A stretch of DNA of 64,000 nucleotides from contig NZ_CM002139.1 of the NCBI RefSeq assembly GCF_000454545.1, positions 884,503 through 948,502 of the forward strand, written 5' to 3'. The translations under genes and the position numbers were made by a program. Below, one piece after another: positions 35,140 through 38,212 of this stretch. Position 1 is the first letter of the stretch. Each line of letters opens with the position of its first letter. The DNA is from Xanthomonas cassavae CFBP 4642. GTDB taxonomy: Bacteria > Pseudomonadota > Gammaproteobacteria > Xanthomonadales > Xanthomonadaceae. The notes under the pieces were generated by a model. It was given only the letters and a program-made list of their open reading frames with translations, had not been told where the DNA came from and did not search any database.

Positions 35140-36516
35140 TCAGGCAAGACGCGATGCAGTGCGGCGCACGCTTGCCAACGCGCGCGTGGCGATGTCGCGC
35201 ATCTGATCGCTCAAGGTGTCGTCGTCGATGGACCGCTGCCAGAACTGTCCGGCCATCTCCGCGGCGCGTCGCCATTGTGCAAATTGACCGACCGTGGGTA
35301 GTGGACTCTCGATGTCCCTGGGCACGATTTCGCCACTGGATGCCGGCCGCAGCGCCATCGGTAACATGTCGTACACCGGTGCGAGCCGCAGCGGCAATGT
35401 GTCGGCAAGAATCAGTGCTGCGTTACCGAGATGCATGTCGGTATTGCCGATGAGCGTGCCGAACCAGCTGATTACCTCAAGACGCTCGGCATCTTCCGCG
35501 CTCAGCCAACCATCGCGTTTGAGCAGCGGCGCAAGCGCGCGCCATGTGCCGACCTCCGACTGACCATAGAACGCGGCAAAGATCGCCATCAACGAAACAA
35601 AGCCGTGGCGGCCCAGCGTCGAGGTGCGATCAAAGCGCGTGGATTCGAGAAAGACGCGCTCACCGGCCTCCAGCCGCTGCGTCGTTGCGGCTGCGATGCC
35701 ACCGGCAAGTAGCACCTGGTTGGCCAGGTGCTCCATCTGCAGCAGGTCCGCCCAGCGCCGCCCGGCCGGCTGATCGATCCGGTCGGAGAACTTCACAATG
35801 ACCGGACGATACATGCCATGTTCGCGCAGTACGGCAGTGAACTTCGGTTGCTCGCCTGCAGCGGACGAGCCGACGTCCTCGCCGCGCAGTGCGGCATCGG
35901 CGTGCTTGAGATAGGCCTGCGGGCGCGCTTGGATGTCGATGCACTCGGGCTGGTCGATCGACGACAGCGCGCGAGCCAGCGCATGCTCGCCAACGAGCAG
36001 GTCGCCGAGCTGGTCGTGACCATCGGACAGCAGCGCGACGAGTGTGTCACTGGGCGACCACAGCATGAGATTTTCAGGCAGCCGCAACGGCCCGGAGACG
36101 CGACGTGCCAGATTGCGCCCGAGAAATCCCTGCGGGCGTTGGTCATCCAGAAACCAGGGCAGCGACTCGAACACGCCCAGCTGCATCGGCGGATGCAGGA
36201 GCACCGGGTTTTCCTGCAGCAGCTCCACGAAGAAGTGGTCGTGATGGAGTGCATGCAGCTGGCCCAGCGCCACAACGCGGGCATGGCTGTCGATGCGGTA
36301 GAGCGGCCATGCGCGCGCGCCCCGCACCTCGCCCGCGGCGGCATAGCTGGTGGCGCGGGCGCTGCCGTAGCGCCGCACCGCAGTTCCTGCGGCGGCAACC
36401 AGACGAGAAAGGGTTGCCTTGCTCACGCCCAATCGCCCGGCAAGATCGGCGCCGCGCAACGGGCCGTTGACGCGCAGCGTGGTGAGCAGGCGTTCTACTG
36501 CGTCGAGCTGGCGCAT
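35140..36516 (-). CDS. yjjJ: HipA-family kinase with an N-terminal helix-turn-helix (YjjJ-like)
   Basis: About 458 residues from the ATG at 36516 (MRQLDAVERLL); a GTG at 36525 is an alternative. Residues 1-60 form a winged-helix DNA-binding domain (LRGADLAGRLGVSKATLSRL). The rest is a HipA-type Ser/Thr kinase: AAGEQPKFTAVL (Gly-rich loop), RPVIVKFSD (ATP Lys), LESTRFDR, LIGNTDMHLGNAAL (catalytic Asp and Asn) and LAPVYDML (metal-binding Asp). All key residues are present. E. coli YjjJ has the same HTH-kinase layout and no separate HipB antitoxin; none is seen here either. A direct repeat upstream may be its own operator. Confidence 0.88.
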   Translation of the reverse strand: MRQLDAVERLLTTLRVNGPLRGADLAGRLGVSKATLSRLVAAAGTAVRRYGSARATSYAAAGEVRGARAWPLYRIDSHARVVALGQLHALHHDHFFVELLQENPVLLHPPMQLGVFESLPWFLDDQRPQGFLGRNLARRVSGPLRLPENLMLWSPSDTLVALLSDGHDQLGDLLVGEHALARALSSIDQPECIDIQARPQAYLKHADAALRGEDVGSSAAGEQPKFTAVLREHGMYRPVIVKFSDRIDQPAGRRWADLLQMEHLANQVLLAGGIAAATTQRLEAGERVFLESTRFDRTSTLGRHGFVSLMAIFAAFYGQSEVGTWRALAPLLKRDGWLSAEDAERLEVISWFGTLIGNTDMHLGNAALILADTLPLRLAPVYDMLPMALRPASSGEIVPRDIESPLPTVGQFAQWRRAAEMAGQFWQRSIDDDTLSDQMRDIATRALASVRRTASRLA

Positions 36517-36948
36517 ACGAATCACACGTGAAACGATTAATGAAACGATACAGTAGGATTAATCATCAATCAAATTACTGAATTTAAAAGAAAATATCGC
36601 CTGCAGGGTCGAATCAAGCATAAAGAATGAGACGATACTTTCGATGCGCCTGAGCTGAAGGGGGGGGCGGAGTGCAACACACAGCTCGCAGAGGCTGCGG
36701 CGACGCCTCCACGCCAGCGCCTTGATCGCACCGCGCCGGACACGCGCAGCAACCTTCCGTCATCCTGCCCCCGCACGTAAGGCCATCGGCATGGCAGCAG
36801 CGCTCGGTTTGCGTCACGTTGCCCTGCTCAGCCGTCGATGCGACATCTCCGGCTCCTGCCTCAGCGACCATTGATTGCTTCGATGCACATGGTCCGTTGC
36901 CGATGAAACAGTGGCATCGCGCAAAAACGCGTGGTATCAATGCACCTC
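36517..36948. other. Intergenic region between the HipA-like gene and the aroG leader
   Basis: Near 36529-36600 it is AT-rich and holds the HipA-like promoter and direct repeat. A G7 run lies at 36661. The part at 36660-36940 presumably carries the aroG promoter; no gene is supported. Confidence 0.5.
36529..36551 (-). promoter_or_regulatory. Direct-repeat operator candidate upstream of the HipA-like gene
   Basis: TGAAACGAT occurs at 36529 and again at 36541, a 12-bp period, directly upstream of the HipA-like start. Since the protein has its own helix-turn-helix, autoregulation at this site is a reasonable inference. Confidence 0.5.
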
Positions 36949-37032
36949 ATGAACGCACCCCGCAGCCAGTTTTATTTTTGGTACTACGGCTTTCCGATGC
37001 CGCTGGCGGAGGAAGGAGTGCGTTCACCCTGA
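36949..37032 (+). CDS. Aromatic leader peptide of aroG (attenuator)
   Basis: A 27-codon ORF (an in-frame ATG at 36940 would make it 30). Codons 8-15 read FYFWYYGF, seven aromatic residues in eight, against a GC-rich background where TTT, TAT and TAC are not favoured. The stop at 37030 lies 27 bp before the terminator hairpin. Such a run is the hallmark of ribosome-stalling leader peptides that sense charged tRNA for Phe, Tyr and Trp. No strong ribosome site is visible, which is the weak point. Confidence 0.75.
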   Translation: MNAPRSQFYFWYYGFPMPLAEEGVRSP

Positions 37033-37087
37033 AGGAAACTTCAGCAGCATTCCCGAAAAGCCGCCAGCGCACACTGGCGGCTTTTTT
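37001..37087 (+). promoter_or_regulatory. Attenuator of aroG: mutually exclusive antiterminator and terminator
   Basis: CGCTGGCGG (37001-37009, in the leader ORF just after the aromatic codons) is perfectly complementary to CCGCCAGCG (37061-37069). The same downstream segment, as GCCGCCAG (37060-37067), also pairs with CTGGCGGC (37074-37081), followed by six T (37082-37087), forming an intrinsic terminator. Ribosome stalling at the aromatic codons would be expected to favour the first pairing and allow aroG transcription. Confidence 0.8.
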
Positions 37088-37138
37088 GTTGCCGCTCTGC
37101 CTGGCTTCCCCGATGCACTGCCGACCCGAGACAACGTG

Positions 37139-38212
37139 ATGCCGCCTGTGACCGATGACCTGCGTATCCGCAAGATCGAAGCCCTTGCCCCTCCCTCGCA
37201 GCTGCTGTCGCTGCTGCCCTGCGACGAACGCGCCTCCGAGACCGTGACCCAATCGCGGGCCGCGCTGCATGAGATCCTGCACGGCCGCGACGACCGCCTG
37301 GCCGTGGTGATCGGGCCCTGCTCGATCCACGACCCGGTGGCCGCAATGGACTACGCGCAACGTCTGCGCCCGTTGCGCGACCAGTTCGGCGATGCGCTGG
37401 AGATCGTGATGCGGGTGTACTTTGAAAAGCCGCGCACCACCATCGGCTGGAAGGGCCTGATCAACGATCCGCACCTGGACGGCAGCTTCCAGATCAACAA
37501 GGGCCTGCGCGTGGCGCGTGGATTGCTGCGCGACATCAACAACCTGGGCCTGCCGGCCGGTGTCGAGTTTCTCGACATCATCTCGCCGCAGTACATCGCC
37601 GACCTGGTGGCCTGGGGCGCGATCGGCGCGCGCACTACAGAGAGCCAGGTGCACCGCGAAATGGCCTCGGGGCTGTCGTGCCCGGTGGGCTTCAAGAATG
37701 GCACCGGCGGCGACGTCAAGATTGCGGTGGACGCGGTGGGTGCGGCCTCGCATCCGCACCATTTCCTGGCCGTGACCAAGGACGGCCACACCGCGGTGGC
37801 GGCCACTGCCGGCAACCCGGATTGTCACGTGATCCTGCGCGGCGGCAAGGTGCCCAATTTCGATGCGGCCAGTGTGGAGGCGGCCAGCCAGGTGTTGAAC
37901 AAATCCGGCCTGCCAGCGCGTCTGATGATCGATGCCAGCCACGCCAACAGCAGCAAGAATCCCGAGAACCAGCCCAAGGTGGTCCAGGACATCGCAGCGC
38001 AGCTGGAAGGCGGCGAAACGCGCATTGTCGGCGTCATGGTCGAAAGCCATCTGGTCGGCGGCCGCCAGGAACTGGTTCCCGGGTGCGAGCTGACTTACGG
38101 CCAGAGCATTACCGACGGCTGCATCGACTGGGACACCTCGGTGCAGGTACTGCAACGGCTGGCGACGGCGGTTCGCACGCGTCGCGCACGCCGCATCGGT
38201 GAGGCTGCGTGA
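37139..38212 (+). CDS. aroG: 3-deoxy-7-phosphoheptulonate synthase, class I (AroG/F/H type)
   Basis: Condenses phosphoenolpyruvate with erythrose 4-phosphate, the entry step of aromatic amino acid synthesis. A 357-residue protein; the ATG at 37139 is used, with a GTG immediately before it as an alternative. Motifs are VVIGPCSIHDPVAA near residue 58, VYFEKPRTTIGWKGLINDPH near 92, GARTTESQVHREMASGLSCP near 161, and IDASHANSSKNPENQ near 263. The length is normal. Expression is probably controlled by the leader-peptide attenuator directly upstream. Confidence 0.97.
   Translation: MPPVTDDLRIRKIEALAPPSQLLSLLPCDERASETVTQSRAALHEILHGRDDRLAVVIGPCSIHDPVAAMDYAQRLRPLRDQFGDALEIVMRVYFEKPRTTIGWKGLINDPHLDGSFQINKGLRVARGLLRDINNLGLPAGVEFLDIISPQYIADLVAWGAIGARTTESQVHREMASGLSCPVGFKNGTGGDVKIAVDAVGAASHPHHFLAVTKDGHTAVAATAGNPDCHVILRGGKVPNFDAASVEAASQVLNKSGLPARLMIDASHANSSKNPENQPKVVQDIAAQLEGGETRIVGVMVESHLVGGRQELVPGCELTYGQSITDGCIDWDTSVQVLQRLATAVRTRRARRIGEAA

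Follow-up and report, generated by a model that had tools for sequence, protein, structure and literature searches.

A probable leaderless transcription attenuator with codons for three aromatic amino acids upstream of aroG in Xanthomonas cassavae and its relatives

Introduction

The attenuators of the Escherichia coli trp and pheA operons (Rfam Trp_leader and Phe_leader) combine a leader ORF carrying the cognate codons with antiterminator and terminator structures that exclude each other. The 1:2 pause or protector stem belongs to the classical trp layout and is not found in every attenuator of the trp/phe/his kind. The E. coli genes aroF, aroG and aroH are controlled by the repressors TyrR and TrpR, which act at the promoter. 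The main comparative study is that of Vitreschak et al. 2004 (FEMS Microbiol Lett), and it may contain the aroG case. We found no earlier description of a proteobacterial aroG attenuator in the open-licence literature of PubMed Central; a prediction in a subscription journal is possible. The closest published idea that we found is the uORFC-13-1 motif, predicted to be an attenuator with a leader ORF upstream of a DAHP synthase gene, which we liken to the present case by its description; its 24 examples precede aroF, are confined to Acholeplasma and environmental sequences, and contain at least one Phe codon (PMC8632094). In Sinorhizobium meliloti, the trpL-trpE(G) transcript opens directly at the AUG of its leader ORF, which is leaderless, and is subject to tryptophan attenuation (PMC7298713, PMC10117765).

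The DNA upstream of aroG in Xanthomonas cassavae CFBP 4642 resembles the E. coli trp and pheA attenuators in its leader ORF with cognate codons, its mutually exclusive antiterminator and terminator, and the amino acid biosynthetic gene located downstream. It differs from them in that this gene encodes a DAHP synthase, that the codons stand for three amino acids, that a conserved 1:2 stem is lacking, and that the leader ORF is probably leaderless. With the TyrR/TrpR circuit of E. coli it would share the end-product control of DAHP synthase genes, which is there exerted by repressors at the promoter. Like trpL of S. meliloti, it would attenuate a gene of the aromatic pathway through a leaderless leader ORF, the leaderless start being predicted here from the sequence; in contrast to trpL, which responds to tryptophan in front of trpE(G), the codons for phenylalanine, tyrosine and tryptophan stand here in front of aroG. 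That the aroG device works like the trp and phe attenuators is well supported, and we consider it very probable that it is a ribosome-mediated transcription attenuator responding to the charging of the tRNAs for Phe, Tyr and Trp.

Results

The aroG Locus and Its Leader ORF

The window, by which we mean the whole 64 kb stretch of DNA that was analyzed, contains the following genes and leader elements at this locus.

35143-36525, minus strand: HipA-family gene YjjJ, the next gene upstream of aroG (profile match)
36949..37032, plus strand: leader ORF MNAPRSQFYFWYYGFPMPLAEEGVRSP, 27 codons followed by a stop codon, probably leaderless (ORF translation and relatives)
36970..36993, plus strand: regulatory codons TTT TAT TTT TGG TAC TAC GGC TTT, encoding FYFWYYGF (translation; relatives)
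37139..38212, plus strand: aroG, the gene that would be regulated, encoding a type I DAHP synthase of 357 amino acids (TIGR00034, 533.8 bits at a cut-off of 173.2; PF00793)

When the 5.27 Mb genome was searched with AroG, no second protein match besides AroG itself was obtained. The terminator described below ends 51 nt before the start of aroG, and since the next upstream gene runs on the other strand, there is no neighboring plus-strand gene that it could serve to end.

A short leader ORF rich in codons for the end products of the pathway is present upstream of aroG. It contains FYFWYYGF, with seven aromatic codons in eight, as had been noticed in an earlier note on this DNA; of its in-frame ATGs, the one at 36949 is kept in relatives, whereas the one at 36940, where the range given in that note begins, overlaps the -10 element and is absent from several of them. 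One short ORF with at least seven aromatic codons in eight occurs in the window versus none in 60 dinucleotide shuffles of it, and for at least six in eight the mean of these shuffles was 0.017. Codons for all three aromatic amino acids are present in 99 of 100 leaders from the family (in all our counts the GTDB-type family, Xanthomonadaceae), in 18 of 18 alphaproteobacterial leaders, and in 16 of 22 mostly Burkholderiales loci. The suggestion that all three aromatic amino acids are sensed at once fits the codons of the family, but only two of 12 Oxalobacteraceae leaders contain all three; the sensing itself is a prediction from these codons.

Among relatives, the aromatic run varies in both the order and the number of its residues (FYFWYY, FYWYY, YYFW, YWFWY, SYFWYFSY, FYFYFFWYL). 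The peptide 3' of this run is kept as well (PLAEEG), and the codons GCG GAG GA(A/C) GG are fixed in all 87 rows, out of 100, that hold AE(E/D)G. This conservation speaks for a mechanism of the TnaC- or riboswitch-like type, in which the nascent peptide FYFWYYGFPMPLAEEG itself, or a metabolite, would arrest the ribosome in place of slow decoding. The variable aromatic run, however, is more easily reconciled with decoding than with a peptide motif, the conserved stretch behind it overlaps bases of the antiterminator, and no Rfam family is matched at its cut-off; such an arrest is in our judgment highly improbable, and the slow decoding of aromatic codons is by far the better reading. A purine-rich, Shine-Dalgarno-like stretch, GGCGGAGGAAGG (37006-37018), lies within the leader over these fixed codons; it could delay the ribosome across region 2, or it could merely serve the pairing. 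One genome of the genus (G018, locus L130) has an early leader stop just past region 2 together with a broken T run.

Terminator and Antiterminator

Between the regulatory codons and aroG, the RNA can adopt two structures that share one strand.

37001..37009, plus strand: region 2, the antiterminator 5' arm CGCTGGCGG, within the codons P-L-A-E (pairing, folding, covariation)
37015..37053, plus strand: antiterminator inner helix, GGAGTGC (37015-37021) with GCATTCC (37047-37053) (folding, compound-structure covariation)
37029..37044, plus strand: antiterminator apical hairpin CTGAAG/CTTCAG enclosing the leader stop codon (folding, compound-structure covariation)
37055..37087, plus strand: intrinsic terminator hairpin (3:4) with six T (folding, covariation)
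37061..37069, plus strand: region 3, CCGCCAGCG, common to antiterminator and terminator (pairing, covariation)

The intrinsic terminator lies between the leader and the structural gene; its 13 pairs join 37055-37067 to 37074-37086, and the six T already noticed run from 37082 to 37087. The alternative pairing proposed earlier was found to be perfect: CGCTGGCGG is complementary over its full length to CCGCCAGCG, which overlaps the 5' arm of the terminator. This antiterminator begins just past the regulatory codons. None of 1000 shuffles of the 190-nt leader contained a terminator as good, and an antiterminator pairing as good with the terminator arm was seen in five of 1000 shuffles of the upstream part; chance is therefore an unlikely origin of this combination of leader, terminator and antiterminator. 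The terminator folds at -21.4 kcal/mol (z -5.2) and the segment from region 2 to region 3 at -35.3 kcal/mol (z -4.5). When either region 2 or the stop-codon stretch is blocked, folding yields the terminator; when the nascent RNA ends before region 4 and region 2 is free, it yields the antiterminator. The full-length RNA favors the terminator, whether it is folded by itself or with a ribosome placed on the Trp codon, so that the antiterminator must form first.

A 1:2 protector stem, which would join the beginning of the leader to region 2, was discarded as a family-wide feature, since only 8% of 50 distinct family leaders reached p<=0.05 (median p 0.39); outside the family, 25% of 36 distinct leaders did so. 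Attenuation of aroG through an aromatic leader peptide is well supported by conservation and pairing, but to speak of the full trp/phe-operon logic, as the earlier note did, overstates the likeness, as the family has no consistent 1:2 stem. A second pairing, of TGAACGCAC at the 5' end with GTGCGTTCA at the end of the leader, is strong in the window but variable, attaining p<=0.05 in only 17 of 69 distinct sequences, and was likewise dropped. The leader does not belong to the Rfam families Trp_leader or Phe_leader: the Phe_leader match at 37032-37090 has 20.0 bits against a cut-off of 55, and an Rfam scan of the leader produced no usable match, whether the cut-off or E<=10 was applied. A weak full-length match to the Burkholderia sRNA BcKCsr7 (13.8 bits, E 2.4, cut-off 59) raised the idea that the leader may already be catalogued as an sRNA; it was discarded, as an Rfam scan over 14 loci, seven of them from Burkholderia, Caballeronia, Paraburkholderia or Trinickia, revealed no family at its cut-off.

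Conservation of the Pairings

The terminator stem 3:4 and the antiterminator stem 2:3 were evaluated on 75 diverse sequences against 500 shuffles, with slid versions of each stem as a control. Stem 3:4 is paired to 96.4% and has a covariation score of 0.170 versus 0.085 in shuffled sequences; for stem 2:3, the corresponding values are 79.2% and 0.071 versus 0.044. The compound antiterminator, represented by 22 pairs that were taken from the window's own fold, which favors it, is paired to 83.8% in 59 family sequences with a score of 0.094 versus 0.062. In all three cases neither the percentage nor the score was reached by any of the 500 shuffles, and every slide was lower on both. The stricter counts are weak. 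Four pairs changed on both sides in stem 3:4 (equaled by two of the 500 shuffles, and by 192 for further pair types), five in stem 2:3 (reached by 59 of 500; further pair types by 24), and six in the compound antiterminator (reached by 197 of 500; further pair types by 53), for which a slide by +1 even gave seven. Some covariation is present, strong by percentage and score and weak on these counts. The losses that the earlier note had named as refuting its reading do not occur, as relatives retain both the aromatic codons and the alternative pairings.

The core GGCGG/CCGCC/GGCGG is nearly invariant, and because it hardly varies, evidence for the pairing must come from its flanks. Nine of 157 passing loci, whose region 2 was not cleanly of the GGCGG type or whose arm was not cleanly of the CCGCC type, do not enter the triplet and segment counts given next. 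At the first flank position of regions 2, 3 and 4, the triplet T/A/T occurs at 107 loci, C/G/C at three and A/T/A at two (148 triplets), while in 28 of the 148 triplets 2:3 is broken and 3:4 intact. The three regions also change jointly, to AGGCGG/CCGCCT/AGGCGG in L011 and L012 and to CCGGCGG/CCGCCGG/CCGGCGG in L059 and L165. The 2:3 stem is imperfect, with 24 of 75 rows broken at the pair adjacent to the core and 35 of 75 two pairs further out. The stretch between regions 2 and 3 folds more than one standard deviation better than its shuffles in 46 of 57 distinct family sequences, and elsewhere in only 19 of 50.

A Promoter-Like Element Directly Upstream of the Leader

Upstream of the leader ORF lie three promoter-associated elements.

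36896..36912, plus strand: inverted repeat GTTGC-N4-GAAAC plus N-GT, GTTGCCGATGAAACAGT, directly beside the -35 region and a candidate binding site for an activator or a repressor (one window match; 35 of 35 genus genomes)
36911..36916, plus strand: weak -35-like GTGGCA, a third GTTGC-like half-site, similar in many relatives, with a putative role suggested by its 18-nt spacing to the -10 element
36935..36940, plus strand: -10 element TATCAA with a predicted transcription start at 36947-36949 (conserved spacing)

A TANNNN hexamer is found 12-15 nt 5' of the leader start codon at 98 of 100 family loci versus none of 100 at a control distance of 18-21 nt; it reads TATCAA at 84 and TATCAC at 10 of the 100 loci. 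The same spacing is seen in four of four Rhodanobacteraceae (control 0) and 16 of 18 alphaproteobacterial loci (control 1); it is not kept in the 22 mostly Burkholderiales loci (4, control 3) or in the 12 Oxalobacteraceae (4, control 2). At the usual distance between a -10 element and the start of transcription, the first RNA base would fall at the leader AUG or within about 2 nt of it. Shine-Dalgarno-like tetramers occur at one of 100 family loci, and the leader ORF is probably leaderless.

A generic terminator and promoter scan of 36530-37200 reported no terminator and no sigma-70 promoter. We think that the terminator was missed because the scan counts T only past the stem, whereas the T run here is taken up into the stem, and that the promoter was missed because the scan demands a T at -10 position 6, whereas the element reads TATCAA; both features consequently rest on folding and conservation instead. 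As the scan certifies no promoter here, the one upstream of the leader included, it gives some room to the notion that the hairpin is a constitutive terminator that ends stray transcription behind an unrelated ORF, with the aroG promoter downstream of it. The same scan, however, finds no promoter between hairpin and aroG either, the leader codons, spacing and pairing are conserved across families, and the conserved -10-like element sits directly 5' of the leader and not past the hairpin, which would place the transcription start upstream of it. We give very little credence to a constitutive terminator and retain attenuation as our reading.

The Inverted Repeat and an Attenuator Upstream of asnB

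GTTGCCGATGAAACAGT is the sole match in the window to GTTGCNNNTGMAACNGT with at most one mismatch (0.18 expected; 15 of 100 shuffles hold one). The own genome contains five exact matches to GTTGCNNNTGMAACNGT versus none to the reversed pattern, and three of the five apparently lie away from such promoters. A 20-base form of the element, with one mismatch permitted, has 69 matches in 35 genomes of the genus versus 16 for the reversed pattern: 35 at aroG, in each of the 35 genomes, 30 exact ones at a second place, and four elsewhere. Thirty loci were retrieved, four of them aroG and 26 with an Asn leader; all 26 second sites that were read carry this leader.

The second place corresponds to the asnB promoter, whose Asn-rich leader MVICLANRNNANRNALCANNRARPMRVCD is apparently leaderless and comes with a region 2 and a terminator.

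Own genome C6 ~4884963-4885240 (L173), minus strand: asnB attenuator, with segment CCGATGCGGGT and terminator AACCCGCATC-GGCC-GATGCGGGTT (also loci L249-L278 and L286-L315)

In the family, where the protein was matched in 109 of 119 genomes, an Asn-rich frame and a terminator are present at all of the best 30 loci, which were read, with four to nine Asn in 14 codons. Among these 30 promoters, 21 have the inverted repeat, eight a TTGCCA-type -35, and only one has both; L263 and L266 show neither, owing to limits of the script. This pattern suggests that the inverted repeat is a candidate activator site that replaces a good -35. In the open-licence literature of PubMed Central, we found no earlier description of the asnB attenuator, and an asparagine-codon attenuator before asnB is seemingly undescribed so far.

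The presence of the element at aroG in all 35 genus genomes, its exact second copy in 30 of them, with an Asn leader in 26 of 26 read, and its excess over the reversed pattern raise the question whether a regulator binding GTTGC-N4-GAAAC exerts the dominant control at initiation, with the attenuator in a secondary role. Against this stand the derivation of the 20-base pattern from the aroG and asnB sites themselves and the weakness or absence of the element in distant relatives that retain the attenuator (L167, L168, and the Burkholderiales and Alphaproteobacteria inspected). We regard such dominance as unlikely, although it deserves more weight than either of the alternatives discussed above, and keep attenuation as the principal control.

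Other Aromatic Regulators and Operons in the Genome

The genome has no match to a TyrR-type HTH (TIGR04381), and its sole match to the TrpR model (L248, C6:2253798-2253974) reaches 25.9 bits against a cut-off of 67.25. The earlier contrast to E. coli, where repressors control these genes instead, agrees with textbook knowledge and with the lack of a TyrR-type HTH or an above-cut-off TrpR here; but the operator-like element at the aroG promoter suggests a second control at the level of DNA. The small L248 protein adjoins a hisG-like ORF (hisG named by eye) and is perhaps a HisR-type regulator (cf. PMC9413887).

Upstream of trpE in the same genome (L174, C6:843670-848043), a GTG-started frame with WWRWW, perhaps leaderless, runs towards trpE. 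No terminator was seen beside this Trp-rich frame, and a different Trp control is possible; upstream of pheA, no similar attenuator was seen.

Distribution and Descent

A locus passed with four or more aromatic residues in nine codons and a hairpin scored at 24 or higher; one frame was taken per locus, so that leaders can be missed (L075 has an aromatic frame yet counts as a miss). Leader and terminator were present in all 95 family genomes whose aroG upstream region was read, 35 of the genus and 60 others. In the genus, all 35 genomes searched have aroG, leader and terminator. The family sample contained a type I aroG in 73 of 247 genomes, 13 of them of the genus; the other 60 were all read and all passed, and the weakest passing family locus, L164, has four aromatic residues in nine. 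In the other 174 genomes sampled, no type I AroG match was seen; these may use a class II DAHP synthase.

A scan of contigs gave at least 592 matching stretches, and the best 80 of these were used; among the named records matched, the nearest are [Pseudomonas] boreopolis (90%) and Xanthomonas (86 and 85%), and nearer ones may be missing from this set. Sixty passed, five of five from the family and 55 of 75 others, with Burkholderia, Caballeronia, Massilia, Janthinobacterium, Rhodanobacter, Dyella, Bradyrhizobium, Mesorhizobium and Devosia among them; the 20 misses include Enterobacteriaceae, Vibrionaceae, Rhodocyclales relatives, Methylotenera and Ferrovum. Among 66 high-scoring loci of the class (Gammaproteobacteria) outside the family (26, L182-L207, and 40, L208-L247), only two (L182 and L235) have leader and terminator; hence, type I aroG genes as a whole do not share the attenuator. 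A tree was built from 117 AroG proteins, 72 of them with a leader; on it, leader presence requires five changes versus a shuffled mean of 36.1, a value reached by none of 500 shuffles, and the leader-bearing alphaproteobacterial, rhodanobacterial and xanthomonad enzymes form, together with L182, a group of 39 rows with a support of 98. This distribution suggests few origins, possibly more than one, with gene and attenuator inherited or transferred jointly.

Discussion

From the anatomy, its conservation, the pairings, and the promoter-like element at its distance from the leader, we infer a course of events that runs from the start site and translation to stalling, termination and the response to amino acids. 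Transcription would begin at the leader AUG or no more than about 2 nt from it, and a ribosome would load on the leaderless mRNA and trail RNA polymerase. When charged tRNA-Phe, -Tyr or -Trp is scarce, this ribosome would stall on FYFWYYGF. By our own geometry, region 2 is left free as long as the A site of the ribosome is occupied by any aromatic codon other than the last. Region 2 would then pair with region 3 in a compound antiterminator, made up of the 2:3 stem, the inner helix, and the hairpin around the stop codon, and the polymerase would continue into aroG. When all three tRNAs are charged, the ribosome would cross region 2, reach the stop codon and block the antiterminator; 3:4 would form, and transcription would end before aroG. 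Since in the window the inner hairpin holds the stop codon, a terminating ribosome would disrupt it, so that in our reading termination follows once the leader is completed, even with region 2 lying upstream of the stop codon.

In a wider reading, to which we give about even chances, the leaderless three-amino-acid attenuator would be an ancient mode of control that belongs to one aroG lineage and has traveled with the gene in Xanthomonadales, Burkholderiales and Alphaproteobacteria. In the genus, the aroG promoter would form a regulon of two members with the leaderless asparagine attenuator in front of asnB, with one factor that binds GTTGC-N4-G(A/C)AAC and would substitute for a good -35 box.

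If the attenuation model is correct, the gate of the aromatic pathway would be directly under the control of tRNA charging, with one leader reading three end products in a genome in which no TyrR was found. Sensing would rest with a leaderless ORF that has no conserved protector stem, which would add a further case to the attenuators described. The common promoter element would, in addition, connect the synthesis of aromatic amino acids with that of asparagine.
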